Assembly (NCBI GenBank): GCA_037043015.1
Contig: CM073321.1
Span: 15,993,001-16,057,000, forward strand
Source: Bryum argenteum
Taxonomy: Eukaryota; Streptophyta; Bryopsida; Bryales; Bryaceae
Direction: 5' to 3'
DNA length: 64,000 bases
How positions within the stretch are numbered: the first letter of the stretch is position 1; each line of letters begins with the position of its first letter. The position numbers and the translations under genes are program-made. Under the pieces are notes generated by a model. It had not been told where the DNA came from. It did not search any database and worked only from the letters and a program-made list of their open reading frames with translations. This document shows, piece by piece, positions 8,343 through 58,340 of the stretch.

Positions 8343-8600
8343 GACGGTCGCTGGAGGCAAGGGCCGGTCGCAGCGGCCGACGGCCGGTCGCCGAGGCCGA
8401 CAACCAGACCGACGACCGGTTGCCCGGGCCGAAGGCCGGACCGGTGGGCCGGCGGCCGGTCGCTAGGGCCGACCGCCGGTCGCCCTCGCCGACGGCCAGT
8501 CGCTCGGGCCGACGGCCGGTCGCCCTCGCCGACGGCCGGCCAGCCGACTGGTCGGTCGGGCCGACGGCGAGCTGGAGAACCGGTCGACGGGGTGGTTTGA
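8343..8600. repeat. GC-rich GGCCGGTCGC island 3
   Basis: Tandem-like CCGACGGCCGGTCGC words with a period near 30. The long open frames on both strands (up to 207 aa on minus) have repetitive translations and are rejected as genes. It lies upstream of the hAT start. The following stretch, 8640-9050, is AT-rich with no feature I can support. Confidence 0.7.
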
Positions 8601-14865: not shown

Positions 14866-14868
14866 TAC

Positions 14869-14913
14869 CACTCACCGCTCACCGCTCAACGCTCAACGCT
14901 CACACCGGTGGTT
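14869..14913 (+). repeat. (TCACCGC)n 7-bp array with MULE-type terminal flank
   Basis: About five units, some with CAACGCT variants, ending CTCACACCGGTGGTTTTC. The same array plus CACACCGGTGGTTT forms the right end of the 13-kb MULE at 57.97 kb. It therefore looks like the terminus of another member, joined directly to the DUF7869 3' arm. Confidence 0.75.
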
Positions 14914-14917
14914 TTCT

Positions 14918-21394: not shown

Positions 21395-21427
21395 ACCGCT
21401 CACCGCTCTACGCTCACCGCTCACACC
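21395..21427 (+). repeat. (TCACCGC)n array at the MULE end
   Basis: About four units, one mutated to TCTACGC, ending GCTCACACC. It is the terminal array of the truncated MULE; the sequence immediately beyond belongs to DUF7869 copy 3. Confidence 0.8.
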
Positions 21428-21429
21428 CC

Positions 21430-24400
21430 GGCTACGTCCGATCTATTGTTCAATCTTCACGCCACACGTTCCATTTTTTTGTGTCCCATTCCATGAATGT
21501 CTTGTTGGTAATATGTTTTCTAGTTGCGAGAGTCTAGTATTAAATTTGGATCATATGGAGATGAGCGAGATCTATACTTGGTTTTGTTATGGCTCTAGGA
21601 AGCCATAATGCCCTGGGTTCATCATCAGCAGGATGCATTGCAACAAAATATCTTGCAAGTGTATCACGCATTACATAGAGTGAAGTACGTAGACAGTCAC
21701 GGATATGTCCAACAAAGGATAGATCCTCCGCATCCTCTTCTTGTAGAGTACCATCTCTACGCATGCCATCAACCTCTTCAACGACAATTCTTGAAGCCCT
21801 CCAAAATCCATCTACGAAACTTTCACGTGGATTGATAGTTGCATCGAGAGGAGCTCTAATACCTTTTTAATAATCTCTTGAAGGATTATTCTGTCGTCTA
21901 AATTTTGAGAAGTGATCCTCCTTAGCCATTCATGTTCAATGTGCACTATACCCATTTAACAGTTCATTTGATATCATCAAGTGAACGCATATGCTGTAGG
22001 ACGACGGGATTAGGTTGACCAGATGGAACATAAAGTCATCGATCTTCAGTCTCACCCCATAGACGGATCCGGTTGCCATGCTTTATTAGCCAATTCTTGT
22101 TTTTACACTGAACCTTGTACTTCATGTGTTAGCGTGCGTTAGAGCGGATGGAATGCTTTACGAGTTCATCCAAAGCAGCAGAATAATTTCCTAGGGCAAC
22201 AGGGAAGGAAGGAGACTGAGGGCAGCTTGGTTCTCGAGCGAAGGGCTTCAGCTGCATACCACGGTGTTGTTAGATTCGAGGAAGAGAAGTCCTTGCTTTC
22301 TATCCGTAGAATCTTTGGTAGAATAAAGATGTCGAGGATGGTAGTGACGAGGGCTACGTTGTGCTAAGGAGGTGTCGGAGGTGGCTCAGTGACTCGGAGC
22401 GAACGAGGTTGTCGAGGTATAGTGTAGACGTCCGGAGTCTGAGCTGCGGTTACTCTGATACCGCGAAGAACGTTGTACAGACACAAAGTCAATGTCAAGG
22501 GGTTAGGTCGCTGGCCATCAAGCAAATACAGCAAGCACAGAGAGAGAGAGGGAGAGCGTTAGAGTTTCAATAGGAGAAAGAGAGTGATTGGCTCTGGCCT
22601 TTACATTCATGCCACGGAATCTAAGTACATTGGAGGGTTGATTGAGCTAGCCTGAAGGTGTACTTCTATGGTGACTACTACGAGTGTCTCTTTTCTTGTT
22701 TTCTACTGCTTATATCCTACGACGCACCGTGGAGGTCCTGGAAATCGGGCGGTGCCCTTATCCGAAGTGCCGTAGTGTCCTCAGTCAACAGCTATCGCCT
22801 CCGCCTTGGTTGCCATGGTGCCATGTTTGGTGGCTATGGCCTCCGTCAAGTGTGTCGTGGTTGCCCTGTTGCCTTTATTGCTCCTGCCTTGGTTGCCGTG
22901 GTTGCCCTGTGACGTCAGTGGGGTAACACCATGCCAGGCCACCCATTGAAATCCTCGTTGAACTTGAATTGTTGAAACTTGGAATGACTTGATAAAAAGT
23001 CATGGCATAGGCCTAGATAACCATTGCAAAATTGCTTGAAATTTGGACCCTTGTCAATCACGTGCGGAAGAAGAAGTTGTGTTTCACTATCCATGGAGGA
23101 TTTTATAAGTCTTGGGATTGTCAAATGGTTATTTATATTCAGCTTTCAGCTCGATTGGTCAAACATGAAATCTATATCTTCATGTGTGTGTTCAACTATG
23201 AGAAAGTTGATATACAGTTCACGGTAGGTCCCTTTGTATACAAGGAGTGAAAAACGGCCAAAAACCATCTTTTTTTATTCTCACCTAAAACATTATCTAG
23301 CTGCAAGACTTGTATAGGGAGGCAAAGCTTGAGCAAGGACATGAGCATCATGTTGAGGAAGAAGGGAGTGAAAGCATGTTCCCGAACCTTGCAAACGGCA
23401 TCGATTAATGTAGATCAAGTATTCTCATTTGAAAAAAGCTTCCGAGAAGTATTCCTAGATTGTCCTTTGAGATCATGTAGAAGCTTTGCGAGAGATCCAA
23501 TGGTTGCATTAGAATTAGCTTTGAAGCTGTCTAGGCCATAGTGCGTGTACTTAACATCTCCATGACCATGGAAAATAATTCCTATAGCTGCAACAAGCAT
23601 TTTTCTCTAAGAATCCGTCGCCTTGGTCTTCTGAGAAAAGTGTGGAGACGTGGTCTTGGAGTGATCCATTTTATCATGAATAATAGTAAGCAGCTTGTGA
23701 GGAGAATCATCGGAAATGGTCCAATTGAAATAGTATATTTCTCTATGTGCCCGTTGAGAGATGAGGGGAATTTACAGTTTATTTGACCACGTCTTCTGTG
23801 CATATGATAGAGGTGTGCAAGCGCTTCACAATTGCTTGTAACTTTCTCATAGGCCACTTTGAGAGAAAGTATCACCACCGGCCTTCGGAGCAAATTTTGG
23901 AAATGAAGAATGCTGAATGTTACTGAAGTCACTTGGGGAAATTGGCGGCAACTTGAATCTTGCATTCATCTCATTGATGTGAGCTAAATTGTTGCTCCAA
24001 CAAAATGTAGATTGAAAGACCATTAAAAGGACTTTTTCAGCAAATTCGAGATTTTGTTGGCATCAAAGACTCTCAGCGCTCGAAGTGTTGCACTTGCTTG
24101 GACCGTATGTAGTCGTGGTTTTTTCAGCCCCACATTACCATGCTCATCAACTTGTTTCACACTTTTGGACATTTCTCTATCCCCATAGAGTGTAGCTCTA
24201 GAAATACCATGAATGATCCGCTAAGGAGTAGAACACACTTTCCTACCTTTCAAGGTAATCCACTCCTTGCCAATAAGGTCTTTGTGGATCTCTCTCTCGA
24301 CCTCAAGGAGACACTTCTTTTGAGCATAGACCCCATTCTTCACATGCAGTTGAGAGTGAACAGTATGAGATTTTCCTTGTGGAAACGGTTGTACGCAATT

Positions 24401-26826: not shown

Positions 26827-29530
26827 CTACTCCTCTCCACCGTCGAACCGCTCAATACTTTGTTTGATGATGTCGATTTGACGCTCCGATAATGAAATAA
26901 TCGGACGCCAAGAGCCAAGTTTTGCACTTGATTTCCATGACGTAAAAATAGCATCAGCATGAAGCCATTCCGGAATGTGAGTGTCTTCAAGTTTCCATTT
27001 GAAAGTCTTCTTCGTATCCCAACCAGCATAGGTTTCCTAAACAACACTATTTTTTGATGCAGGTTGAATTATTGCATTTGAATACAGCATGGATAGTTGT
27101 GATGAACATCGAAATCAGTTAAAGCTCTAGCAATCCAGAAAGGATGAGCATCCCCATCAGCTGGACGTAGAGCTACAAAATATCGAGCAAACACATCTCG
27201 ACCAACCCGAAACGACTCCCTTGGTCTATCACACAACCGTCCGATACAGTGTGGATCACGCCCATATTCCTCTCGCAATTCGCCAGTATTTAAAAATTCT
27301 CGTGTCGCAGGTACTCGAGTTAAAGGCCAACACCCGTTCTTCAAAAATGAAGACACTTCTATAGGCTCAACCAACGCAAGCTTCACAGCTTGCCAATAGC
27401 AAATAACAAATTCATGACGCCGACCAAATTCTCCAGATATGTCCTCCGCACATGAAGTCTCCCACATCTTAATAAACCCTCCAATGCCTTTTACAATGCC
27501 ATCGCGATTCTTCATGGGAATGGCCACCAAAGGTTTCATCTCACCTGTAGGTAACAATGGTTTTCCCGTACTTCAATCCTCTTTCCACAATTTTATACCT
27601 CCATTAGTAGAAGGTAACCACTCATTGTCTGTGCATAACATCTTATACTGCATCATGGGCCATCCATTGTCATGCTTGTAAAACTTGAATTGCTGACCCT
27701 CAGAATGCCCAACTAGAATTTCCTCTCTCGAACCAATGTAGTCTTTGATATAACCCTTGAAGTCAGGTATTTCCTCTATCAAATGAGAAATGACCGGCAA
27801 AGACTCTGCGTCCATAAATGACTTCATCAACTGAGGAAGTGTGAGAAAGTCATTCTCTTTGAGATTCATGCTCCAACGTCCGAAGAGGGCATCAATATCT
27901 TCGTGGGTATGTCCAACTAACAAGAAATTGACATATACTTCACGGAACACACCCATGTGTACCAGAAGAGACCAAAAGCAAAACATAAATCTATTCTTGT
28001 TGTCAGAAGCTGCGCTGTCCAGTTGCACATGCAAGACAGGAGGTAGAGGCTCCGCCACCCCAAAAACTTCACTTTCAGGAAGAAGAGAGTTTAAACACCC
28101 TTCTTTTCCAAACAATACAACTTCAAATAAAGGCAACGACCCCGAATTTGCAAATAATGATCTTGAATACGAAATCGGAACACCTTCTAGATCTCGTAAA
28201 AGCTTTACTATTGATCCAACGGTGTGATTGCAATCACTTGGAACAATATCGAGCCCATAATGAGCATACCGGACATTGCTATGCCCGTGCGCAATCATGC
28301 CAGTCACAGCAAGTGGAAGCTTCATCAATGCATCATTTGCCTTTGTTTTATGTGAAAATACAGGGCACGCAGTCTTTGCATGATCCATTTTGTCATGTAT
28401 TATACAAAGGACATCTCTTGGCCTCTGAATAGAAAGAGAACGATTTGAATAATAATACTCACGATGCGTTTCTTGATGATGCAAATGCTCCTCTAGCTTC
28501 TTGATCCACATATTCTCTTCACATGAATCGGGTACCATAGACTTGATCATTGTCTCCATCCTGTCACAAGTTGAGCAACGAGCAAAGTTGTCCCCCGGCG
28601 CCTTCTTTGAATACTCAGTAAATTTTGACCTCCTAATCCTGCTCATTGTGCTATGGGAAATAGACTTCAAGCCCAACCTCTCATTGATGTCATTGATCCC
28701 GGATATGGCATCCTTCCATCTGAAGGACGATGCCAAGGACCGAGAGACAACCTTCTCACCAGATGTCAACATCTTCGACCGGTGAGGCATATGATCAGCA
28801 GCATTGTTAATGAATGTCTTCAGAGTAGCTACAATTTGCTTTACATGCAATCGTGGTTTCTTCTGACCAACATTCCCATGGTGGCGAGCATGTAGTCCAG
28901 CTGCAGCTTCTGCCTTCCTCCTGTAAAATGTGGAAATCGGAACTCCAGTAATATGTTGCCAAGCACGCGCGCAAACATCAATGCCTTCAGTCGTTACCAT
29001 CATCGTGCCGTCCGGTGCCTGATGAAAACGATTATAAACATCTATTTTAAAATGTGACTTAAATTTAAAACCCGACGCCTCGTACATCTGCTTTCGGAGA
29101 GCCATAATTTTCTCTCAAGGGAAAGGTTGGCAACAGTTCTTGCTGCAGCAAATCTTGCTTGCAACCAAGTTGACTGAATCTAACGTCAGGAGCTCTTCTT
29201 CCCTCTTGGTCCTTAAGAATCATTGGTTTCGTTCTCCCAACTCATACGGTCGCACCCCCTTCTTCTTTGGATGATCGCGGGCATAAACAGCGACGTTGAA
29301 CTGATCAACTCGTAAATGATCAAGTAGTGACCAACCCTCATGCATAGCATGGCTGAGCTTCCAGCTCCTAGTTCCATAAATGGTCTCAGCAGGTACGTAG
29401 TCGAAATTGAAGCACTTCACGATCTGCACAACTACCTGATCTTCACATACCGGCTCGTCATTACTCTCTAACACTCTTTCAGCGTCCAGAGTCTGACAAA
29501 TGCCTTCACCAACAAGCTGCCCGGTTCATT
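26827..29530 (-). pseudogene. DUF7869-type element protein, copy 2
   Basis: A well-conserved inverted homologue of copy 1, about 70-75% identical by eye. It reads in frame from 29105 to 27573, with N-terminal pieces up to about 29530 (GEGICQTLDAERVLESNDEPV). It keeps the core IHDKMDHAK, HGHSNVRYAHYGLD and QLDSAASDNKNRFMF...GHTHEDIDALFGRWS. A single in-frame TGA at 27573-27575 replaces the serine of copy 1; the same frame then continues to 27069. A further break precedes the C-terminal WDTKKTFKWKLEDTH and ISLSERQIDIIKQSIERF, which ends at 26827. A break also separates the N-terminal 29220-29474 part from the core. Confidence 0.8.
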
Positions 29531-41274: not shown

Positions 41275-42334
41275 CTTCTCATTACAAGGCCCTAAACATC
41301 GTCGTTTTCTACCAGGCCCCCCTTCTAAATACCTTGTTCCGTCCGATTGCTTCAAAATCCCCCACCAACCACCTCATATTACCTCTGGGTGTTGCGGTTC
41401 AATACCCAATCAGTGCTGGCAGTTCTTTGCATACTTCAGCATTTTGCAAGGTACACACCCTCTTGTTTTAATACCGTTTGCTATTGTTACGTGTTCCCTC
41501 ACTGCAGGCAGGACCGTCCAAACAGCCCAAACAACGTATCTCGCCCGAGCTACCCATTACGCATATCTCCCGCAGTCTTTTACGATCCAAGCCCAAGTGG
41601 TTGAATGTGATGTTGGAGTTGGACGGGGTTCTACATTTGATGGCCTCTGTGTCTACCCCAACGCCTGCAGAGTGCCTATCTTTTCCGGATCCCAATAATC
41701 CTCCAGTGTTTTCCTCCACCGTCCCAACCTTAGTTGCCGGCAGGGTCGTCTACTGTCGTCCCGGGTTGACCGGGTTCCTTCGCTTACTAAATTTGTTTTG
41801 CCACATCCACGTCTGGAGTACCCTAGAGCCTAAGGTTGTCCATGGACTCTGCTCCATTTTGTTCTCGAAGTCAGACGCTGCCCCTGGACTTGTCTTGGCT
41901 TCCAACCAATGCGATAATCTGTTGTTGAAGAATTACGCATTCGCCAAGTACCCCGGCACAACAAATCCCATCCTCTTAAAATATCCTCGACGGCGGTTGT
42001 ATCCTAGGAAGGGTGCCAATTTCAATGACGATAACTTGCTCATTGTCGATTCCAAGCCCGAGACTTGCATTGCGGTTCCCACAAAGAACACACTTTTCAC
42101 TGTTCCGTAGAACCATTCCTGTCCGGAGGAGCCAAAGTCCGACTTATTAAAGAGGATAGGCGAGATATGTCTTGCCGTGCATTTGAATGGTCCTGAGAAT
42201 TTTCCCGAGACTATGCGCCATCATAGACCCACGCATAATGAACTGTCGAAGGACTCAGAGTTGTATAAGCTCTTGAGCCGTAATCTTCCATATTTGTGGA
42301 ATCAGGACCGAATCAGTGGGAAGAATTTGCCTTA
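41275..42334 (+). pseudogene. FCP1/SCP-like HAD phosphatase, degenerate
   Basis: An exon ending at 41450, an intron 41451-41511 (GTACAC...GGCAG), then an exon running in one frame to TAA 42332-42334 with a single in-frame TAG at 42108-42110. HAD features are the motif I region KWLNVMLELDGVLHL, CRPGLTGFLRLLNLF, the motif II-like VWSTLEP, and DDNLLIVDSKPE near the motif III/IV position. The FCP1 family uses DxDGT/V; here the nucleophile Asp is Glu (LELDG), so catalysis is doubtful even without the stop. The 5' end is uncertain because the frame opens inside the 3' UTR of the preceding gene. It is cargo of the same element. Confidence 0.65.
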
Positions 42335-43157: not shown

Positions 43158-44833
43158 GTCGATTGGGGCATCTATGCTTATAATATAATGCCATTTGGAA
43201 TTTGTAATGAGCCTGCAACTTTCCAAAGAATTGTTACCGTAGCATTTCATAAAAATCTTTGTTAATTTATGGAGATTTTTGTAGATGATTTTTGTGTGTT
43301 TGGTAATAAGGAAGATCATCCCACCTCTTTCACACTTTGTTTTGCTTAATGTGATCAATTTGTTGTACCTTGCGGTAAATTGCTAACACACATTGTTAGT
43401 ACTGAAGGTATTAGTAGTAATCAAAATAAAATTGCCTTAATTGTTCATACTCTCCAACGTGAGACAAGAACTAAAGGCAGAAGTTTTGTAAGAGTTGGAA
43501 GTTATTATAGTAGAGCGGTCAATGATTATGCTACTGATGCCACTCCACTAACTAATGTATTAAAAAATTGGAGAAGGGAGTAAATCCTATTTGGACTTCT
43601 GAGTGTATTAAGGCCTTTGTTACCTTGAAAGAACGCTTGAGTAGTGCACCTGTGTTATTTCCTCCCAATTGTGAAAACAATTCCGCGTATATATGGATGC
43701 TTCTAATATAGCATTGGGTTGTGTTTTGAGCCAAAAAGATGATAAATGATTATTTTGCTAATCGCCAATTGATAGCTGTTGAGAAAAAAAATACGACTAT
43801 AGAATGTGAGGCTTTCGGTATGATCTTTGCAATACAAAAATTCAGATACTATTTACTGGGGAGTCCATTTACTTTTTACGGTGACTATGATGCGTAGAAA
43901 TATTTGATTAATAAACCCGATTTAAGTGGTCGTTTAGCTTGATGACTATTACTCCTACAATAATTTGATCTTTCAATTGTAGTTAGGTCTGGTTAGACCC
44001 ACGCCAATGCTGACCACTTATCCTGATTAGAACCTACAAGGGAATCTAATATTGTTCCAATTGAAGATGAGTTCTCAAATGGCCAATTGTCTGTAGTAGA
44101 AGCAATCTCGTCGTAGTATAAAGATATTTTAGAATACTTAAGAACTAACACTTACCGGAGCGATTGTATGATAAACAAGTTAAACACTATTTGCATAAAT
44201 GTGCTTCTTATTCTCTAATAAATGATATTAAATGATATTCTCTAATATGCTTTTATATAAAAAAGGTAATAATGGATTATTACGTCGTTGTATTTCTACC
44301 AACAAAGTTTCTGTGATTTAAAAGGGTGTTATACCGATGGATGCACGGGTCATTTTGCGGATTTCACAACAGCTCTAAAAATTTTAAAATTTGGCTATTT
44401 GTAGTCAAGTTTTTTTGAAGATGCCCATCATTATGCTAAAATTTGTGATTCTTGTGAGAAGGTAGGACGCTCTACACCTACAACTATACCCTTACAGCCC
44501 CTATTTGCATTAGTACCATTTGAGAAGTGGGGGATCGACTTTGTTGGTCCAATAGCACCTCCAACTAAATATAGTAGAAAACGGTTTATCTTAGTTGCAA
44601 CGAATTACGCCACTTAATGGACAGACCCTAACTACTAGTGGTACAGATTGGAATGAAAAACTATGGGGAGCTCTTTGGGCTTATCGTACAGCGTGTAAGG
44701 TTACTTCCAAATTCACACCATACTAATTGGTCTATAGGCAAGAAGCTATTCTTCCAATTGAATTTGAAATAGCTTCCTTGAAGATAGCCATGTCAAATAG
44801 ATTGGGTAATGTTGAGAGGTTAGACGCTAGACT
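43158..44833 (+). pseudogene. Ty3/gypsy pol, 5' portion of a split element
   Basis: Begins inside reverse transcriptase (VDWGIYAYNIMPFGICNEPATFQRIV, then the catalytic FVDD in FMEIFVDDFCVFG). RNase H (ALGCVLSQKD, FRYYLLGSPFTFYGD) and integrase ([37 protein letters not shown]) follow. Many stops and frameshifts. It ends at the TSD GCTAGACT (44826-44833), and the same reading resumes at 57988 beyond the MULE. Everything upstream of RT is replaced by the ParB element, with a sharp junction near 43158. Confidence 0.88.
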
Positions 44834-44848
44834 GGACGTTGCTACCGT

Positions 44849-44873
44849 GTGAGCGGTGAGCGGTGAGCGGTAA
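44849..44873 (-). repeat. Left terminal (TCACCGC)n array of the MULE
   Basis: On the plus strand it reads GTGAGCG GTGAGCG GTGAGCG GTAAG, inverted relative to the right end. The adjacent sequence 44873-45060 matches the end of the truncated MULE at 21240-21395. Confidence 0.88.
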
Positions 44874-45292
44874 GATTTTAGAATTTTGAGGGCTGACTTT
44901 GTATTTTTAGTAAAAAAATTCTAAAAATAGTATAATATATTTTATTAGAGAATTATTCCCGAATATTCTCGATAATATTCGAATATTCTCGACTTATTAC
45001 CGTGGATTTAGGGACCCAAACCCGTGGAAATAAGGTTCAATTTCCCTGAAATTGGTTAGACTTGAGCTCAAAACTCGACAGAAAATCAGAATTTGTAAAT
45101 GTCAAGAGGTTTCTAAGGTAATGTTTCTAAGTGTTTAGTACACCAAGTAATACAAATTGGCAAGGTTCGTGGTACATGTAGGTACTGGTAGAATTATTTT
45201 TAATCAGTTGTGAAAAAATATCACATACTGTATGAAGCACACAATCAGAAGACTAACTTATAGCGTATGTAGATGATGAGATATAATGCATT

Positions 45293-48200
45293 CTAATCTG
45301 TAGCATGGTCTAGGATTCCACCCTCCAAAATCTTCTTCACCTCGTTGAAACTAAGAGTAGCCGCGTGGATAAAGAGGTCAGCGTCCGGATCAAATTTGCA
45401 AACCAATACCGTGATGAAGTATAGGTGCTTGCACGGTCGGTATGGATCTCTCCGTCCTAACGAAGAAATTGTTTTCTTGAACACTGGGCATGAGCAATCC
45501 GGGAATTTACTAATTGAAAGTCTATAAACTGCATCGGAATCCGACTCCAAGTCTACGATACATCCAAATCCGGGTTGCGGATCATGGTCACCTTTAGAAT
45601 TTTGGCCTGCATTGAGGTGGCAGACTCAATATTCTTCATGTGCTTTGAAGTCATAGCTGGAATGCGTTTCATGTTCTTCGATCTTCTTGACCTAGGGAAC
45701 ACGTCCGACTTCTCCGGGACTGGAATATGGGACAAGTCTCTGGGTGGGGCAGCATTATAGAATGTGCGATTTTTAGGAAGCTGTTCTTTCTGGGGTAGTC
45801 GGAAGCCCGCATTCTCTAACGCCTCCATCTCATCACGTGTAAGGTTAGTCCCTATCTTAACAGGCCATATTGAAGGAATAGGGGGTCTATCCTCGCTTAG
45901 AGAGAATGGCTCAATCCACTTGCGACGATAACCCTTCACACACCTATCAATATCATCCGCACAAAAAAAGAACTGATCAATTTTTCTTGGCCCTTCTTGA
46001 GGGCGTTGCCATACTCCGGTGTAAGTTGGAGCTGCGGTCGCCTTCCCCTTCTGAATAATTCGTGAATCACATCTTTTTTTACTCTTTTGCATGATACCCC
46101 AACAAGCCTTGGCAGAATTCTCCCTCAAACGGGCAATGTGCCACAACCTCTCGTCTACTTTGGTCTCCTGAACAGCGGTCACCCGTTCAATACTAGGTCC
46201 AGCAAAAGCGGATGGTATTGTCGGTGGCTCCTCAACTTCATCCTCTTCATGGATAGTACTCAGATTTTCAACACAAGCTCGGGTAACCCTTCTCCCAATT
46301 CGAGGACGTGAGTAGCTCACGGTGTCAGGTCTGTGCGTTTCATCATCAGCTCCAATCGGAACATCAGCCTTACGTTTCTTGGAGCCGAACACCTCGGCCC
46401 CGTCACGGTGGGCGTCAAATCGTTTCAGCTCCTGGATAGTCAGAAACTGCCTTTGTGAGGCCTGATGGATCGCCGGTTCGTTGAGCTTTATGGGCAACAC
46501 GAAGTAATAGTTCTTCGGATGTTGGTCCACTACCACCCTTGCCACCTCCGTTGAAGTCGTGGTAACCCACAACTTGGAGGAAATCACGAACATAATCATC
46601 TACAGCTGCAACGTACAAGTCTCCACCCTTGTTCCCGGACGCTTGCAACCATTTGTTATGGATAGATTCCGCAAGGTTGCATGAAGGCATCTCCGCCAAC
46701 TCATCTGCAGGATATTTATTTTCCTGCAATGTGCACAGTCATTTGACTTAATAACACAAGCAGTTGATCACGATATCTAGAGTGGGTTAGACTTGCTGCA
46801 CCGCAAGACTGATCTAAAAATAGATATTTGTTCAAAAAAACTTTAAATAATTGTTAAAGTAAAAGTTGATAAAATCAGGAAATTAGATAATAAAAAATTA
46901 AATAATTTTAGGGATTAACCAAACATAAATGCACGTTTACATACTTGCTACAGTGACAGCGACCTCACCAATTCCATGAAGCCACCCCATTGCCTATATC
47001 GGAAATGCCAGAATGCAAGCCAGTGTTCGAGGTGACCTAATCCAACTTCGGAGGAGGCCTGCGCCGACGCCCACTATGCTCGGATCGCCCAGTATCTTGT
47101 CTCCGCCTCAGCCGTAGTGCGTGCATCTTTGTATTGCTTACAAAGATGTCAATGTTGATCCTGCAGCTCGTGCACGATATATTGTTTCGTGTGTTTCTCT
47201 AGGGATTGCGTCCAATGGAAGTAACAAGTCCGTTCGCGGCCTTCCATTGGCACTTTAGGGTCTCCGGAGCCGTAAATGATCCGCACAACGTTCCAGTTGG
47301 CTTGCGCACTGTTGGCCATGAACCCTTGAAACTGCAGCGCTTCCACTTTGTTCGTGCCCATGACGTGGTTTAGGTTCTTCCAGAAGACGATTTGAGCTTC
47401 TCCGTCTTCAGACTGGAAATCACAGCATGCAATAGTTAAAATGCGGCAGATTTTTGAGTCATAAACGTGGCACGCCATGGTCGTCCAGTTCTTGACACGT
47501 TTGACATGGTCGAACATGATCCACGCGTGGGATAAGTCGCCTTGGGGCTGCATACGACGAACAAGGTCTACACCGCTTCTTGGTCCGACCTCCGACATCT
47601 TAAAAATGAAAACTTTGTCACTTTCATCTCTTTGGCCCGGGAACTGGTTACGCTGAATGTAAGCCCAGTTGCTAAGGCCTCGAAGCTTGGTGATCTCATC
47701 AAGAACATCGTATCTGCGCAAGTGTTTAAACGTGGTAATACGATTCCTGACGCTCGGGGAGTTCAGCTCTTTACACTGCTCAAAGATAGGTTCTAGCTCC
47801 TGGAGGGTGAACTTGGAGGTTATAGGGTCACCTTCTTCACGGAGAAGTAAGTTTCCGAGTAAGTCCTTGCTTGCCTCCATGACTATTTTGGACGTGGTAG
47901 CTTGTGGATTACGTTCTACGTGCTCCTCTATTAACTCATCAATTATTTTACGTGCACATCTGTAGTCTCCGACCTTGACAGGATGTTCGTGCGTACCGAT
48001 ATGCTCACACGCCCTCTCTTGACTCTCCTCTCCGAATACATAGAATATTTTAGAAGGACATATAGCAACACAAACGGGAGGTTCTTTGCAAATCTTACAG
48101 ACCAGTGTTGAAGGAGGAGGAGGCGCGTGGCCGACAAAGAAGGAGTTCTTGGTAAAGCCCTCGAACTCCACTTCATTCACTTGTGCTCTGCGGTCAGGTC

Positions 48201-49119
48201 GTAGCAAGAAGCCACACTTGTCATTGTGGCATTGAAGATGCCCTACACAGTTAGAGTAGCGGAAAGACAACCCGAGGTTGTTGCTGATGTTAGTAGTCAT
48301 TGTCCTGGTCCACACATGACCGTCGTATCTCTTGTCCATGCCTTCCATAGATTTGGCTACCTTGACAGCAGTAGTTGGTCGAACTGGAGGAAGAATGTAC
48401 AGGACATCACCGTTGAAAGTGGGAGGCAGGAAAGAGACGCTGTGAGTACGAATGAAATGGAAATCAATTTTTTTGAGTATAGTTTTGTTGCGAGACATAC
48501 TACCTAGAATACGGAGCGAGGAAAGAATGTTTTTGGGTTGTACAACTTTGGAGTCAGGAAGAGAAGTGGGGGTGGTTCTGAGATTGTGTTGAGAACGAGA
48601 CGAGGGGGGAGACAGATTCGATGATAGTCGACGGGACGGGATGGACGATTTCCTTTCCTCGTCGGATGAATCAGAAATATCAATTCGGACTTCGAGTCCC
48701 GGTTCAACCTTGACACGAGGAAGAACTGGAAGAACATTGGAGATAGTAGAAGAACTACAAGGAGTGAGGAGGACAGTGGAAGCGTTCATTACGGACTCTG
48801 TCAATCCGAACAATCGATACTGTCCAGGCCAAAGCTTATACATTTTGCAATTACTCTCTAGATCGACAGGTTCGACTAGGACGGAGTACTGGACAAGATT
48901 AGTGTTTGGGTCTAATACATGTTTCTCTAACCAGAGAGAGGACTCATCAAACCCGAATCGAATTGCTAGCCAAGAGGGAGTGACTTCAGCCACACCATCT
49001 ACCCCCGGAGGAATGCAGATTGAGGGACTTAAGTCTTCAGACCTAATGGCAATGACGTCTCCAGCGAGAGGCAAGGGAGCAGAGGATGCCATGGTAGACG
49101 GAAGCGAGGAAGACAACAT
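45293..49119 (-). pseudogene. Mutator-like transposase with SWIM zinc finger
   Basis: Starts ATG 49119. The N-terminal 300 residues have no recognised domain apart from a Cys/His cluster (VGHLQCHNDKCGF, CKICKEPP, ACEHIGTHEH). The MULE-type core follows (HAWIMFDHVKRVKNWTTM, ILTIACCDFQSED, CYFHWTQSLEKHTKQYI). In-frame stops occur at the end of that exon (about 47149) and near 47075. A probable intron is at about 46736-46946 (ATTG|GTGAGG...TTGCAG). Then come NLAESIHNKWLQASGNKGG, a frameshifted middle (46599-45553), another one-base loss near 45570, and a SWIM finger (DCSCPVF...PCKHLYF) with FNEVKKILE. A decayed but recognisable autonomous transposase, divergent from the cargo genes. Confidence 0.78.
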
Positions 49120-49159
49120 CAACAAGTTTGCAGAGAAAGAGAGTCCGAGTTGAGTTTCG

Positions 49160-49643
49160 AATGTTCAAATACGAGAAATTGGTGTAGGGTGTTTGCAGAC
49201 GTATTGAGTACTTATTAAAGGTTATTGCTTATAATAAAACGTACAGATACTCGATACTCTTCATTGTAAGCAAGATCAATTGAAAGCACATTACTTATGA
49301 TACTTAAAATATCTAGATTGACAGAATAGCATTAAGTAGGCAAGATTAAACATATGAGGTCCGCCCATAAAATAAGTAGGTACAGAAGAAAAAGTGACGG
49401 CGGCAGTCATTGTCAGAGATCTAGTTGGATAATAGATGCGTTCAGAAGTTAGCTTATTTTGGATTGTCAGACACGGTGAGAGCGAGATGTATGGGAAGAC
49501 GCGTTGGTTGATTAGGGTTTTTGAGCCGCATGGGGGAACTTATATAATGGGGTTGAAAATCATAGTTCAACCTCTTCATTTTCAGCGAGAACACTTAGAC
49601 TCGTTTAGTAGAACGTGTGAAAAGTTATCTAGCTGCAAGCAAC
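49160..49643. promoter_or_regulatory. Divergent promoter region of the MULE
   Basis: A 480-bp gap between the transposase start (-) and cargo gene A (+). ACTTATATAATGG near 49547 is a good TATA-box candidate about 95 bp upstream of ATG 49644. No palindrome arrays are present here. Confidence 0.45.
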
Positions 49644-50381
49644 ATGGACGAAATCGCTAGCGGTAGTGAGAGAGGAAAGGAGGTAGGTCAGAGAAAGAAG
49701 AAGCGGAGGGGTGGAACGAAGTTCACTAATTCTAAAGCACAAAGGCGTAGTGCTTTGCGGAGGCGCGATGGGAGAAGCTCAAGTGGCGATGATCGAGAGC
49801 CAGACGGGTACGATATCTTGATTGACGATGATGTGCTACCACCATTCAGGCGGACTATCAAAATGCGTTCACTCAACCTCGAAAGTGTCCTGGAGATTGT
49901 CGGGACTAACGAAGCTGAAGAAGAGGAGGAGGAAGGGAGTAGAGGGCAATTCAGGACGTCGAGCGGGACAGTTTGTGCGGATGGGGATGACGATGGAGGT
50001 GTAGACTCTACACATGAGGTAACGTAGTAGTATATGTTACTAATAAGTTGTTATTTATAAAAGGTATACTATTTCCGATTACGAGTAGGGATTAATATCA
50101 TCATGTGTTGACTTCAGGATCGCAGAGGATTGGAAGATAAAGACGATCGATCAAGAGACAAAACAACAAAGTTTGAGGAGAAAAGAGTCACTGATGTGGG
50201 GGACACAGCGGAAGTCACTTTACATCAGGAAACAGACAATGATGTACCGGATGAAGTTGACACAAGCCCCGAAGAATTAGAGGAGGAGGTACACGAGAAA
50301 CCCTACTTCCTGGTTTACTGGGAGGACTTAGGGTTGATTAAGTACACAATGAACGAAAGTTCTTTCTTCAATATGATGTAG
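49644..50381 (+). CDS. MULE cargo gene A: basic/acidic nuclear-type protein
   Basis: Exon 1 49644-50018, intron 50019-50117 (GTAACG...CTTCAG), exon 2 50118-50381, both in phase 0, 212 codons without interruption. The N-terminus is strongly basic (RGKEVGQRKKKRRGGTKF, RRSALRRRDGR), likely a nuclear localisation or nucleic-acid-binding segment. The middle and C-terminus are acidic (EEEEEEG, PEELEEEVHEK) and end YFLVYWEDLGLIKYTMN. No family is recognised. It may splice further into gene B. By position it is a transposon accessory gene. Confidence 0.55.
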
Positions 50382-50639
50382 CTTGAACTTATGACAGTAG
50401 ACAGTTCCATGATATATATGGATCCCATAGGGATGATTATATTTATTAATGATTTTATAGTGCACACAGCGTTTCTTGTTGTGGCCCCAATCTTCTACTT
50501 GCGGGTCTCAATATCGTAAACATGGGTATCAAGTTCGTACTTCCGGAATATGTGACTTTTGAAGATGATGTAGAAGTTCATGAAAAAAATACTTGCGGAA
50601 TTAACAAATGTAAATATAAATTAAATTATGAATGTATTC

Positions 50640-50985
50640 GGAGCTAAGAAGGACCAGGGTGGGACCTAGTAAGGTAGGGGGGTCCGGTTATGGTATTGGA
50701 AGGAGCGGGTAAGGGTCGAGTTTAGGAAGGGACGGGTATCAGCGGGGACGGGTCTAGTAAGGGACCAGAGAAGGAACTGCAGCGGGGTATTTAACGTCAG
50801 GAACCGGCTAGTTGCCGGAGTACCGGCGAGCTGCCGGTATCGGGCGAAAGCAGCCCGTTACCATGGCGAAGCCGCCGGTACCGCTGGCGAGCCGCCGGTA
50901 TCGCCGGCAAGCCGCCGGTACATCAAGCCGCGAGTACCGCCGGCGGTACCGCCGTACGTAGCCGAGCTTTGGTATGCTAGGACTC
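50640..50985. repeat. GGGACGGGT and GCCGCCGGTAC repeat tract
   Basis: 50650-50790 is a G-rich stretch of GGGACGGGT and GGACCAGGGTG words. 50810-50960 is a run of GCCGCCGGTAC and GCCGGTATCGCCGGC words on a period of about 22. No coding sequence. It separates cargo genes A and B inside the MULE. Confidence 0.65.
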
Positions 50986-51189
50986 GATCAAAAAAGCCGC
51001 GGGTGGCAGCATTTCGGCGCAAGCCCTCCCCGGCGATGAAGCTCCTGTCGTTTTTGGAGACGGCTATCTGTGTACGCTAGAGGCGCCGCTCTTTCAAGGC
51101 CAAAGTCGTCGCTACTGAATTAGCAGATTCGTTTATTAAACTATTTTTGAATAGGACAAGGAGGGAACCGCCGATGCGCTCGGCGGTAG

Positions 51190-52869
51190 TCAATTGTTAA
51201 TAGAAGCGAAGAAACGTTAAAGCGAGAATGGGAGGCACTTCGATACTGTCAAGTTGTGCGAGGGTGGTTTTTGATGAAGCTGCACACAATTGCTGTCAAG
51301 AAATTGCAGGCAGAAGAAATCATGGCGAAATCAGCAGAGAAAGAGGTGGCAATGCAAGGAGGTAGTGAGCGCGTCGAAGAAGGTTTAGAGAATGTGAGTT
51401 CCCAGTCCTCAGATTCAAGTCTTTTCTCAGAGTTTTACAAGGAAATCTACAAGGTGCATCGTGCTCCTGATGAATCAATGAAAACAAGTTCGGAGTTAGA
51501 GGCGTGGTACTGCTTAAAATTCACGGTATGTATTCAGCAGAACTTCTTGTAACCTTAAACTGTAAGAAATCCAAAAACCCTAAGTTCTGTATCTTGCAGT
51601 AGCTCAAACTCGTGGATCACACATCCGCTTTGTTTTTTGTACTCTGTAATGTTTTAGGGCATGTCCTCTTTTTGTTAAACTGAGTCGCGAGCAGAGAGCT
51701 GCGGTGCCGAGGGTCAGCCCTAGGCCCAAGCTGCTCTTTCATCTTTTTGTGATTGAATGGTGGATGTGCTATATTCTTGCTCGTCGTCGCGTAAAAAGTC
51801 GAGAGGTCGCCCGAGCCCGAACTTGTCACTGTTTGACCTTCGTGGCTGTGCTGAACTTCTTGCTTGTCGTTGCCGGGGTAGAGCTACGGTGCCGAGGGCT
51901 TGGCTCGAGGCCCCAGCTGCGTCATTTTCCTTCTTCTAATTGCATTTGGGATGTGCTGATCTCCTTGCTCGTCCTTGCCACGACAGAGCTGCGGTGCCGA
52001 GGGCTTGGCTCGAGGCCCCAGCTACTTGCTTTTCCTTCCTGTAATTACATTCCAATTGTGTTGATCTCCTTGCTTGTCGTTGCCAGGGTAGAGCTGCGGT
52101 GCCGAGGGCTTGACTCGAGGCCCCAGCTGCGTCATTTTCCTTCTTGTAATTGCATTCGGGATTTGCTGATCTCCTTGCTTGTCCTTGCCACGACAGAGCT
52201 GCGGTGCCGAGGGCTTGGCTCGAGGCCCCAGCTACTTGCTTTTCCTTCCTGTAATTACATTCGAATTGTGCTGAACTTCTTGGTCGTCGTTGCCGGGGTA
52301 GAGCTGCGGTGCCGAGGGCTTGGCTCGAGGCCCCAGATGCTTGCTTTTCCTTCTTGTAATTGCATTCGGGATGTGCTCTTTTTTGTGCTGATCTCCTTGC
52401 TCGTCCTTGCCACGACAAGGCTGCGGTGCCGAGGGCTTGGCTCGAAGCCCCAGATGCTTGCTTTTCCTTCTTGTAATTGCATTCGGGATGTCCTTCTTGA
52501 TGTGGATTGTGATTGATATTTGGTATGGATGTTGTGTGTGTGTGAATGCAGGGCTGGTTAAAGGTGAAGGCAATTCAATACGATGCGACTTCTGATGCCG
52601 ACAGCGACTTATCCATTTTGAGAGATCGTGTCCAGTCTGTAGTAGAGTCCCGTCGTTTAGTAGTGGCAATGTCCTCGATTCCCGATACTCAGCCTCTTGC
52701 CCCACCTGTCAGTCACACTTCACGTGATGACTTTGATCGGATTGCACGAGCGGTTAACATGAGAATTAAAAAGAATAATGCCAAAGCTAAACGTATCGAA
52801 GCGATAGCATTGGCAAGAGTTGCACCAAGACGTTCTCCGCGACTTGCAGCGAAGTTCAAATCCATTTAG
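51190..52869 (+). CDS. MULE cargo gene B: small basic protein
   Basis: Exon up to 51525 (open from 51190; first ATG in frame at 51274), intron 51526-52551 (GTATGT...AATGCAG), and exon 52552-52869 ending TAG. The joined protein reads ELEAWYCLKFT then GWLKVKAIQYDATSD and ends MRIKKNNAKAKRIEAIALARVAPRRSPRLAAKFKSI. The C-terminal Arg/Lys segment suggests nuclear or DNA association. The start is unsettled; an upstream acceptor near 51203 would join it to gene A. The 1-kb intron is filled with a 105-bp tandem repeat. Confidence 0.5.
51690..52495 (+). repeat. 105-bp tandem repeat in the gene B intron
   Basis: Units begin GAGCTGCGGTGCCGAGGG at about 51696, 51881, 51986, 52091, 52196, 52301 and 52428. 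The middle units are exactly 105 bp apart; the last is lengthened by an extra TTTTTTGTGCTGATC-type segment. Frames of 270 aa (+) and 160 aa (-) are translations of the repeat. The 105-bp period equals ten helical turns. Confidence 0.9.
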
Positions 52870-53004
52870 TTCTTAGACAAATGATTAGATACTTATAACA
52901 TTCTTCTTCATTATGAATGGTTTTATTACTCAGTTAATATTTTATTATCTTATTGATTCTTATTATTTTGGTGCGATGTTGCATTTTGTTCCTTTATTTC
53001 TCAG

Positions 53005-56000
53005 ATGAGAATATCCGAGCTTCAATCTCTTCAAGACGAAGAAGATATCTCCCCTCAAAACTTTGAGTCAAGTCCACTTCCTGAAGAAGATGATACCACA
53101 CCCTTGCCACAAGAAATTGTAGATCATTTTCCTTCTCCAGCCCCACGTGATACCCCTATCGACCCCGAACCTTCTTTGGAGGCTTTGCAAGATCCCGATG
53201 CACAAGAGTCTCCATCGGATGACGAAGAGTCTTCTTTGCCTGGGAGTGTCAACGTCGGCATCGTGCACATGCCACCCCATCTCCAAAATAAAGATCCTGA
53301 TTGGAGTGCGAATGAGATGCGGATGATTCACAAAATTATAAACACGTTTCGTTTCAAACCTATAAAGAAGTCTCGCATGCTAATTCCATTGTGCCGTTTG
53401 GTGTCTTACCCCAAGGTTCGGCCTATCTCCGAACAAGACGTTCGGAAGCTAGAGAACGAGTTCAACAAAGGTTACCGTGAAGGAGATCGGGTCATGTATG
53501 TATCTCCATTCGATAAGAAAGGAAGAGAAAAAAAAGTTGATGCAGGAGACAATGTGTGGGAGAATCCGCTTTGGAGAGATGCAAATGAAGAGTTTGAGAA
53601 GACTTTGATGTCAGATCCCGATCTTCATCCTCTCAGTGGCCACTACTTCTATGTATACGAAGGAAATCACCGTTTGACCGCGTGGATGCGTCATATAGAG
53701 CGGTACCACCAAAAAGATCCATCATGGTACATCTCAGTTGATTGCATTGTACTGGATGCTCGCGGTCAAAGCAATCTCCTCCTTGATGCCATGAATGACA
53801 TAAATTGGTAAGTACTTCTAACATTTTTTCGATTACTTTTCTTTCAAATTCTGTAATCTCGACGTATTCTCATATACAGGTCTACCTTTACGCTAAATAG
53901 GTCTACCGAACATGACCACGTCGAAGACAGTTTATGTGCGAAGCTGCGGAAGTTTGGTAAGTTGGAACTTGAAGATTTCAAGGATCTCATTACTCCGGAG
54001 GATTATCAAATTTGCAAAAACGCTAAAGCAAAGAAAGAAACATGGTATCCTGTCACAATGGATGTCTTCGTCAAGTTCTTACACGCGGTAAGACTTCTTA
54101 ATACGTACTTAACACTTCTATCCTGTACTCTATACGTTACAAATTCTTACTACTGCTTATCTGCCATGTAGAGGAGGTTAGCGAAAGCATCGGATCTTGC
54201 CGAGGCTACTTACTATGCCTCTACCCCTAAAGAAAAGAAAACAGGGCCAGGAGTTTGGAGTGCCATGGATAACGCCATCAAAGCTGAAATCAAATCCATT
54301 CGTGACAAAAAGTTTGACAAGATGGTTGCCGTGGCCAATAACCAACTTGGGAAAGTATTCCCGAAAGAGGTAAATAATTCTGTCTACTTAGTTTCTAAGG
54401 ATACCGAATACATTTATTGATTAATACTGTAATTAATTAATTCAATTTGTTCTATGTGTAGATCAATTCTCACTACAGCCAAAACCTGAAGCCCGACATG
54501 ACAATCGAACGGTTGCACATGGTAGCCACCACCAATGTCCACTTTGATTTTAAGGGAAAGTGGCTCCAATGGTGGAATGCGCCAGATGATGTACGTCTAT
54601 CTGTCTGCTTCCCAGTAGACCGCCCTATGAAGGATAAAAAATTGCTTGCCTTCCTGCATCGCGCTTCGCTTTGGGCTCAGGTATATTGTACTGAACTTTT
54701 GTCATTCATGTACTCCCGTCATCCACTACCTACTTTTCCTAACAGGTTCTACTTCATTGCAGTTACAACAATCCCTCGAAAGTGGGATACAACAACTTCT
54801 GGAGGATGGCAAAATTTCCATTCACTGGACGGATGCGGTACTAAAGCCATCCGCTTATGTGGAGAAATGGAGATTGCTCTTATGGGAAAAGGCATTCGAG
54901 AACTACCTTGCTCAGAATGCGAGCCCCAAGTTCATCAAAGGATCCGATATTCAGAAGTTTAGTGGTGGCAAAGTTACTACTAAACGGCTCTTATTCCGGT
55001 ATATATCCACTTAGCTCTTCAATTTCCTATTCATTTTCCTCATTACCAAATTCAGTACTATATACTCAAGTTTATCATTGTTCTATGTTTTCTTCATTGT
55101 AGGTACTTGAAACATGAGCTTGTTGGCAAAGGAGCCTTGGCTTCCTGGTCCATTCCAGCTGAGCTCGACGACGTAGCCGTCTCAAATGATCCATCCAGCA
55201 TCTTCTCCGAAGCCCAACAGAGACGGTTTTCCAACTCACAGTTGCTGACCGGTGGTTGGTTCCTTGAGTGCAACGATAACTTTGTGCACAAGGAAGAGAG
55301 ACATCAACTTCGAAACCTCACTTCAAACGCACCAGGCGATGCACCTATGGAGATCGATGACGATGACGACGAGGACGTGTCCATTTTACCAGGCGCAACT
55401 GTGTCACCCTCCGAACCTCCTTCACCGGTTGCACATCCTAGAACCCGAGCAAACAGAAAGCGACGCAACGCCGCTGCGGAGCCTGTCGTTGATCTTGATC
55501 AAGAACCCGATGAAACCAGTCCGCTCCATCAAGACATTGCAGGTCCAGAAGAAGCTGTTTTGACTCAGGCTTCAGATGGAGCGACCAACAATGCACGTAG
55601 ACGTGGTCGACCATTGACTCAGATTTCTGTAGGCGCTCTTACGAATGCGGGGTCCCCTCCTCAATCTTTCACTGTCGACCACAGCTCCGGAAAGAAGTTC
55701 GCTTCACTCCCATTTCTTGAACCGAAGCATGTTGGCGAGTGCTCGTCTTCTGAGATTACTATTTCTCTCCCAATGTACTTGGAAAAAGGGGATATCGGTG
55801 CTTCTGTTCAAAAGGCAGCTCACGAAACGAAAGATTGGGACACACAAGTGATGGACATCATTAACCACATCAGAAAGGTATTATGTCTTAAATCTCTTAT
55901 TACATTATTTTATTTCTGAAATTATGTTTGGAACATATCGTTTACAACATGTCTAACTATTTGTGATTTCTACAGATTGGCAAGGAAAGGAAGTATCCAT

Positions 56001-57046
56001 GTAAGGAGATGGGCACGAAACACCCGCATCCCGGCATTGATCTCATCTACGCAGACGTTCCCGAGAACTTACGCGTGCCTGACGTGTCGCCCGTCGAGAT
56101 TCCTTCATGGAACAAGCAAGAGAAAAGCTACTTCGAGAGTGTGTTCTTTTTTGCTTTTTACAACTTGACAGACGAGGGTGCGATACTTGTTATGCATCCC
56201 AAGGATCGTCGAGTCGAGAAAGCTCTGGATGCCGAGTCAAAGGCTTTCGATTTCCGAATGGTGCGAGATTGGTGGGAATATAATCCCATGCCAATGGCCT
56301 CGACGAACCCCCACGTGAAAACGGTATGGTCTTCATTCTGCATTGAAATCATCATTCATGATTATTTACAATGTTTCTTTAATTCTCTAACATCTATTGA
56401 ATTTTGCAGACTCACAACTTCCACATTAAGGTCTTTGTTCGGAAGTCTTCTGCCACGAGATTCTCTATAAGACAGGTTGCGAAAGAGTACGCGGGCGTGC
56501 CCATTCTTCCCGACGAGGAGGACCATGTTTTCAATTTTGCGAGCAATGACTCCATTCGTAAGAAGGAAGATGGTACTCCGTGGCGTGGCTCGCGAGAGAA
56601 GGATCCCTCCTTCCTCCAGTGTTTCATTGATTCTCTCACAGATGAGCGGGGAATCGTCTTTGACTGGAGCCCTAGTACAGGTTGGTTGTTGCAGAAGAAG
56701 CAACGCCCAACATTTTGTACGTACTTATCTCTTACTTTTCCCCCTTGCTATTGTCACCTTCACTTGCTAATAATTTATTGGTATTGACTTTTCCTGTACT
56801 TTTAGGATCGCAGGTTCCAATCGAAGCTTGATTGGCGAGGGAAGTCTCTACAGCAGTCCTCCGCAAACCTTCACCCTACCATCTTATGCGGAGCGGATAG
56901 CTCAGGAATTTGTCGCTGCCCCTTCTCCCGTCTTATCGGACAGTAGTAGACGTCGGCGCTTTAGCTCGAGAGTGCTTGCTTTTATAGACGATGAAGCCGA
57001 TCAGTGTGACCAACACTTTAATGGTTGTTCACCATCAGCATCGTAG
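53005..57046 (+). CDS. MULE cargo gene C: ParB-like/DNA-methyltransferase-like fusion, intact
   Basis: Nine exons: 53005-53807, 53880-54087, 54172-54369, 54462-54680, 54763-54998, 55103-55877, 55976-56323, 56410-56720 and 56806-57046. All introns are GT-AG, phases agree throughout, 1,112 codons with no stop. Residues 1-95 are acidic and disordered. Residues about 125-270 form a ParB/Srx-like domain with YVYEGNHRLTAW (about 213-226). A Lys-rich helical middle follows, then an acidic DDDDDED and an Arg-rich linker. The C-terminus resembles beta-class amino-methyltransferases: IDLIYADVPEN at about 834 (DPPY site changed to DVPE) and GIVFDWSPSTG at about 1010 (motif I), then NRSLIGEG. An acceptor-like CAG abuts the ATG, so a leader exon is likely. 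The altered DPPY makes catalysis doubtful. Confidence 0.75.
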
Positions 57047-57880
57047 GTCTTTTTATTTTCCATGTTTGGTTTGGACTACGTAGGGTCATATAGTTGCCCT
57101 CCGGCATTGGTGATACATGTGGTTTTGTTATACGTTTTTATATATATATATGACGTTCACATATTAATCATGAACATTTAATGCATTCTTAATTACTATC
57201 TAAACTCAATGCAAACAAAAGTTTCAAAACGTTTCTTTATTTTCAATTGGAGTGATAGAATCTAGCCAATGTTGGTAGGGGCTCTGGTTCAGTATTTGTA
57301 TAGCTCAGGATAGTTGCTTTACAACGCATTGCAACGCTCAAACGAGCCCGAGGAGAATCGAACTCGGACCACTACAATGCCACGTGAATGTCTTGCTGTA
57401 CACCTTACAAGGAGACATGGAAAGACAACTTGTAGTTATGAACTTCAGATTATATACCACGAATCATTTACATATAATTCTGACAAGTGTTGTAGGCAAT
57501 TGATGACGTCAGCCCTAATTCTAATCTAAATTTTAAAATCATTAAAGCGATTTTATGGTTGTCCTAATGGGCCCTTCCAAATTTTGGTTAAAATTTTGTA
57601 TTTCTGAGTGATCGGGGATAGTATATGATTTGTATTGTATGGGTTACAGACTTACACATGATGATGTCATCCCTAATTTAATTAACTTTTATTTAAACTG
57701 GCAGATGTGGATAATTTATGATAATTTGTATGACCTCAATAACATGAAAATAAATGGATAAGGGACCTATATCCACGGTTTTGGGTACTTTTATGCCTAA
57801 AAATAACCATTTCAAAATTTCAAAACCACGCATTCCATGGTAATAGGGCCATAAACTTTAAATTTTTTTTCTTTCTTACC
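57047..57880. other. 3' non-coding region of the MULE
   Basis: AT-rich, with a TATATATATA run near 57141. No gene is supported; the 71-aa frame at 57314-57529 lacks any domain. The sequence up to 57880 leads into the terminal array. Confidence 0.4.
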
Positions 57881-57881
57881 G

Positions 57882-57975
57882 CTCAAACTTTACCGCTCAC
57901 CGCTCACCGCTCACCGCTCACCGCTCACCGCTCACCGCTCACCGCTCACCGCTCACCGCTCAACGCTCACACCGG
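57882..57975 (+). repeat. Right terminal (TCACCGC)n array of the MULE
   Basis: About 12 tandem 7-bp units ending CAACGCTCACACCGGTGGTTTCCCCAA, followed directly by the TSD at 57988. This is the longest of four such arrays in the window. Confidence 0.93.
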
Positions 57976-57987
57976 TGGTTTCCCCAA

Positions 57988-58340
57988 GCTAGACTTTGCC
58001 AATTGGAGAATTTAGATGAATTCAAGAGAGAAGCTTTAAACAATACCTATGTAGTCCAACAAAGACAAGAATCTTTTTATGATAGCAAATTGGATAAGAA
58101 AGAATTCAAAGAAGGCGATTTAATCTTATGGTAGCTAGGCTTTTAAATCTCACGAGAAACTTAGAATCCATTGGCTAGGTCTTTAAATTACTAAAACTTT
58201 GAATCCCAATGGTTCAGCCCAATTGCAAGATTTTCAAGGTAAACTTATTCCTACTTGTATTGATGACTATCAATTAAGACCGTATCACAATGCAGCCGAG
58301 GTCGGCTTCAACAATGGAGTGGAAGAGGTCTAAACTGATT
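57988..58340 (+). pseudogene. Ty3/gypsy pol, 3' portion of the split element
   Basis: Continues the integrase C-terminal region interrupted at 44833: QLENLDEFKREALNNTYVVQQRQESFYDSKLDKKEFKEGDLILW, followed by a stop and a frameshifted tail (LQDFQG, RPYH). The GPY/F-like module is recognisable only in pieces. The sequence beyond about 58340 may include the 3' LTR, but its limits were not found. Confidence 0.85.

Follow-up and report, generated by a model that had tools for sequence, protein, structure and literature searches.

We analysed a 64,000-nucleotide stretch of the moss Bryum argenteum genome (assembly GCA_037043015.1, contig CM073321.1, forward-strand positions 15,993,001 to 16,057,000; hereafter the window, numbered from its first letter), in which a gene encoding a ParB/sulfiredoxin (Srx)-type domain and a DNA methyltransferase (MTase)-like domain in one protein lies within a DNA transposon. 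We consider it probable that this is an accessory gene of the 13.15-kb inverted-repeat element, and that its product, in which a long conserved middle links a ParB/Srx-type nucleotide-binding domain to a C-terminus like that of beta-class amino-MTases, binds the element DNA. The computation recovered the two-domain gene and its relatives, the borders of the element, a broken neighbouring gene, an altered motif IV and the loss of a segment after motif I.

The gene occupies 53,005-57,046 on the plus strand, with nine exons and eight GT-AG introns in a frame without a stop, as the original prediction had proposed. The frame is 1,108 codons long when exon 8 ends at 56,716 and the last exon starts at 56,814; the predicted length of 1,112 codons was reproduced with donor 56,721 and acceptor 56,806. 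The exons are as follows:

53,005-53,807, plus strand: exon 1, with the ParB/Srx-type domain at about residues 96-267 and EGNHRLTAW at 219-227
53,880-54,087, plus strand: exon 2, from the splice model and two relatives that read into it (below)
54,172-54,369, plus strand: exon 3, from the splice model and alignment to relatives
54,462-54,680, plus strand: exon 4, from the splice model and alignment to relatives
54,763-54,998, plus strand: exon 5, from the splice model and alignment to relatives
55,103-55,877, plus strand: exon 6, the conserved middle, then a variable acidic stretch
55,976-56,323, plus strand: exon 7, in which YADVPEN of the MTase-like domain stands at the motif IV position
56,410-56,716, plus strand: exon 8, with motif I (FDWSPSTG) and an ambiguous 3' end (56,674 to 56,752 among the listed models)
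56,814-57,046, plus strand: last exon, with an ambiguous start (56,806, 56,814 or later), lacking the relatives' segment after motif I

Relatives were found at both ends of the protein. With 327 residues of exons 1-3 as the query, a search gave 70 proteins that match mostly exon 1, all listed at E ≤5.2e-12. A loose form of the exon-1 end motif is present in 66 of these, and the strict form could be counted in 63; in 45 of the 63, whose exon-1 end is readable, the frame ends exactly past ..NDIN[WR]; a conserved GTAA donor in that phase would have this effect. In two others (P0025 and P0068) the translation runs through intron 1 into exon 2. From residue 369 on, three proteins of the moss Ceratodon purpureus align at 42-46% identity, with E down to 3e-200 (one protein search, 8,000 candidates scored), and a C-terminal profile search returned 22 relatives. 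Taken together, the Ceratodon and exon-1 matches indicate that the spliced frame is not due to chance.

One of the 70 exon-1 relatives, Ceratodon KC19_VG030900 (P0021), is on a 110-Mb contig, which its name suggests is the V sex chromosome. In an alternative frame, the tail of KC19_VG030900 can encode METAVQKCIKTIRGKNFDK, which agrees with Ceratodon proteins P0002 and P0003 at 19/19 residues, with P0001 at 17/19 and with the window protein at 10/19 (shuffles, n = 500, reached at most 11). Because of this tail, Ceratodon too appears to have the ParB exon and the MTase gene at one locus, which lessens the worry that the Ceratodon models are without the ParB half.

The claim of a ParB/Srx-type EGNHRLTAW motif stood up. 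Among the exon-1 matches, G220 and N221 are each conserved in 66/67 rows, H222 in 67/67 and R223 in 63/67, and the predicted structure of exon 1 has a ParB/Srx-type fold. Alignment A2 of these matches leaves out P0072 and P0073, which match over short stretches. Fold and conserved GxxR-type loop together place the domain in the ParB/Noc/sulfiredoxin/free-serine-kinase superfamily. The GNHR loop resembles GERR in ParB and GCHR in Srx, and we assume for it the functional meaning of such loops. The domain differs from that superfamily in having no Pfam ParB match, and a helix-turn-helix for DNA binding was not identified in the model, which covers exon 1 alone. The whole window protein matched no Pfam family, no PDB chain by sequence and no MTase in Pfam, PDB or PHROGs; its single PHROGs match was a weak one to ParB (E 0.093). 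Across 69 exon-1 rows, Pfam gave weak scattered families only and no ParB (e.g. DUF6551 in three rows, best E 0.048). The exon-1 profile found nothing relevant among PDB sequences and no confirmed relatives in IMG/VR, and exon 1 matched only three phage records by tblastn (E 6-7).

The assignment of the second half comes through the Ceratodon relatives, so that the predicted ParB/Srx-MTase fusion is supported by way of the family whilst the window protein itself is without an MTase match. Over about 50 residues around motif I, Ceratodon P0001 matched phrog_3008 (E 2.5e-5) and PF01555 (E 0.0024, below the Pfam cut-off); by sequence, a Ceratodon protein gave a DpnA-type MTase in PDB at E 1. A Ceratodon C-terminus matched 290 phage records (tblastn, E limit 10), phages being the sole annotated collection searched with that query. 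Among the best 20 of the 290, several of them duplicates, 19 are annotated as DNA methylase or methyltransferase and one is unannotated; the top record among the matches listed covers 95% of the query and is 22.9% identical to it (E 3e-3). Profile comparison gave an Enterococcus phage methylase over 126 columns through motif I (probability 91) and an Agrobacterium phage methylase over 63 columns (probability 84). The alignment to the phage enzymes bears out the proposed order, with motif IV (YADVPEN) preceding motif I (FDWSPSTG). Motif IV before motif I is the order of beta-class MTases. On these alignments, the moss relatives have a C-terminus like that of a beta-class N6-adenine/N4-cytosine DNA MTase (PF01555; phage DNA methylases), from which it differs in its motifs and in its sub-cut-off Pfam match.

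Motif IV, the most diagnostic catalytic motif, is altered in every readable relative. It could be read in 17 of the 25 C-terminal proteins examined, and [DNS]PP[YFW] occurs in none of the 17, nor in the window protein (DVPE). Fourteen have D-x-P-E/D/S and the remaining three YAPE, DALE and EYPD. At motif I the relatives have DWSxSTG, compared with DNTAGSG and DPFMGSG in the two phage enzymes. Where an active beta-class enzyme would have FxGxG at motif I and then an acidic residue in the following strand, they carry DWSxSTGAS..LIALExD, the latter part of which the window protein lacks. Because the fourth position of motif IV, in place of the aromatic residue, is E, D or S in 17/17 relatives, we think the C-terminal domain of this lineage more likely to be an S-adenosylmethionine (SAM)- or nucleic-acid-binding module, or to have unusual chemistry, than to be an ordinary N6-adenine/N4-cytosine MTase.

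These motifs also bear on a different proposal, namely that intact relatives are active, self-marking epigenetic writers which place methyl groups on adenine N6 or cytosine N4 of their own element and so escape silencing, the motif IV variant being tolerated. The relatives keep GASxIACxRSNRHLIALE after motif I; the same idea has been published for algal proteins (PMC12477816, in its available text), and the available text of PMC8885841 documents an active N4-methylcytosine (4mC) methylase in bdelloid rotifers and states one of bacterial origin for Marchantia. The absence of PP[YFW] from all 17 readable relatives speaks against it, as does the finding, in the same part of PMC8885841, that changing SPPY to APPA in the rotifer enzyme abolished 4mC. 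DWSxSTG at motif I also departs from the D-x-x-x-GSG of the two phage enzymes. We regard an active writer as unlikely, and methylation by the MTase-like domain in this lineage as doubtful.

The original prediction had called the gene intact, which was not borne out at the SAM-binding end. Judged from their protein readings, the relatives would have an intron after ..DWSxSTG, with the next exon starting GASVIACxRSNRHLIALExDxEIFE. The window has a donor at this position (56,681, GTTGGT), and its following exon retains IA-GSNRSLIG alone, with about 54 alignment columns absent before the common C-terminal end. We tried 56 combinations of a GT donor and an AG acceptor at the last junction. The normal end is reached with 19 of them, always without the relatives' segment after motif I (LIALE or EIF), which is why intactness is unsupported. 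Donor 56,681 with acceptor 56,806 runs into a stop after 1,027 codons, whilst with acceptor 56,814 it gives an open frame of 1,096 codons. The window copy is probably on the way to decay.

The borders of the element could be set as follows:

44,834-57,987, no strand assigned: DNA transposon of 13,154 bp bounded by inverted repeats, within a Gypsy-like long terminal repeat (LTR) retrotransposon frame
44,826-44,833, no strand assigned: left 8-bp target-site duplication, GCTAGACT, directly outside the left end
57,988-57,995, no strand assigned: right 8-bp target-site duplication, GCTAGACT, directly outside the right end
44,847-44,874, plus strand: left terminal inverted repeat, three GAGCGGT units
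57,875-57,987, minus strand: terminal inverted repeat of the right side, with about 11 GAGCGGT units (heptamers at 57,875-57,972) and, when read inward, the outer end GGGGAAACCACCGG

Between the two ends, agreement over the outermost 14 bases is partial. The duplication is exact over 8 bp, and counting two further bases to the left of each copy makes it 10 bp, one of them mismatched; two random 25-base windows had an 8-mer in common in 94 of about 20,000 draws. When 44,834-57,987 is excised with one copy of GCTAGACT, the flanks rejoin as an 81-codon open retrotransposon frame, ..NVERLDARLCQLENLDEFKREALNNTYVVQQRQESFYDSK.., which we take to be the end of a Gypsy integrase. A piece upstream of the insertion matches reverse-transcriptase RNase H above Pfam cut-offs, and the integrase pieces of the flank had no Pfam match. 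Elsewhere in the window, GAGCGGT repeats and GGTGTGAGCG, like the ends of the element, are found at 14,867-14,919 (also with a similar outer end) and 21,395-21,427, near DUF7869-type coding regions.

With these borders, the gene is very improbably the remnant of a giant virus or phage insertion, as opposed to a transposon gene. Prokaryotic and viral genomes are the typical setting of both domains, and the nearest annotated MTases are those of phages, within the one annotated collection searched. Against this are the eight predicted introns, the inverted ends, the target duplication and the restored host frame, and scans of IMG/VR contigs with the exon-1 and MTase profiles yielded no confirmed relative. 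A viral insertion is thus disfavoured by the introns and the transposon borders.

The element holds further coding sequence:

45,553-49,125, minus strand: broken transposase-like gene, a 658-aa first open reading frame (ORF) followed by two in-frame stops
49,617-50,027, plus strand: small ORF from the ORF listing
51,270-52,869, plus strand: possible small upstream gene (inferred gene model), with a 105-bp tandem array in a putative intron

The later coding parts of the transposase-like gene are in two frames (an intron or a frameshift). Neither the 658-aa first ORF nor its pieces had a Pfam transposase match, the one sub-threshold match looking unrelated, and an IMG/VR scan with the ORF gave no confirmed relatives; the transposase name goes by resemblance. 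The predicted broken transposase next to the gene is broken, whilst its identity lacks a library match. The predicted carriage by a Mutator-like element (MULE) holds for the transposon, now sharpened to 44,834-57,987, whilst the MULE label is not established, given the missing Pfam transposase match and an exact duplication of 8 bp. MULEs have terminal inverted repeats, which this element shows, and target duplications of 8-11 bp; superfamilies other than MULEs also make 8-bp target duplications. The tandem array of the small upstream gene, at 51,846-52,499 within its putative intron, has six copies of 105-117 bp.

A broken transposase-like neighbour beside a largely open cargo frame would fit a captured host gene that is carried passively, in the manner of a Pack-MULE, with no role for the transposon. 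The family, however, has many and divergent members (70 relatives of exon 1 and 22 of the C-terminus; four Ceratodon proteins), and the same domain pairing occurs in an algal transposon of another superfamily (PMC12477816, available text). Passive carriage seems to us quite improbable, somewhat more so than an active writer.

If the gene is an accessory gene of the element, as we prefer, the ParB-like domain could load onto the element's own DNA, for which the terminal heptamer repeats would be the obvious candidate site, and hold the MTase-like domain there. This might mark the element or shield it from host silencing, or prepare its ends for transposition. A more specific form of this, possible though rather unlikely, is that in moss transposons a conserved ParB-type clamp fused to a catalytically repurposed MTase fold (D-x-P-E/D/S in most relatives, never PP[YFW]) binds the element's own repeat-rich ends in a partition- or shield-like role, with no ordinary DNA amino-methylation. 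Provided that the protein acts on the element that carries it, plants would have a chromatin or clamp factor encoded by a transposon.

Other features of the window are three related coding regions, at 11,759-13,906 (plus strand), 21,462-24,142 (minus) and 26,830-29,105 (minus). The first and the third, which share 75% identity, have Pfam matches to DUF7869, and the second is related to them by tblastn only; all three are possibly genes of the same kind of transposon. An ORF at 6,600-8,033 (minus) carries DUF659 (E 2.3e-35), which is known from transposases of the hAT type, and for one at 41,478-42,107 (plus) the match to NLI interacting factor-like phosphatase is sub-threshold (E 0.00075). ARAGORN, with the bacterial code, called a tRNA-Pro (agg) at 8,439-8,524 (plus), overlapped by an open frame on the opposite strand.

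The original prediction knew of no such fusion as plant transposon cargo. No land-plant case was among the matches listed in a literature search, judged from titles and abstract openings, with subscription journals mostly outside its reach; the available portion of PMC12695648 does not mention ParB. Outside land plants the novelty does not hold. As given in the accessible part of PMC12477816, the Ectocarpus transposon Sola1-1_Ec32 carries an accessory protein with ParB and DNA MTase domains, green and red algal cases of such cargo are cited, and the authors propose that self-methylation lets the element escape silencing. In the Ectocarpus and Bryum cases alike, a single protein of about 1,100 aa has the two domains and is encoded in a large DNA transposon. 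The Ectocarpus gene is on the strand opposite the transposase; the Bryum gene is opposite the neighbouring transposase-like gene, whose identity is without library confirmation. They differ in that Ectocarpus is a brown alga and its element a 21.5-kb member of the Sola1 superfamily, and the likeness is drawn from the published description (PMC12477816, same part). A bryophyte with a prokaryote-type amino-MTase has its parallel in the Marchantia 4mC methylase, which differs in being stated to have no additional N- or C-terminal domains and in not being presented as transposon cargo in the available text of PMC8885841. The Bryum gene, which lies in an inverted-repeat DNA transposon and encodes the two domains together, extends the ParB-MTase class of transposon accessory genes from algae to land plants.
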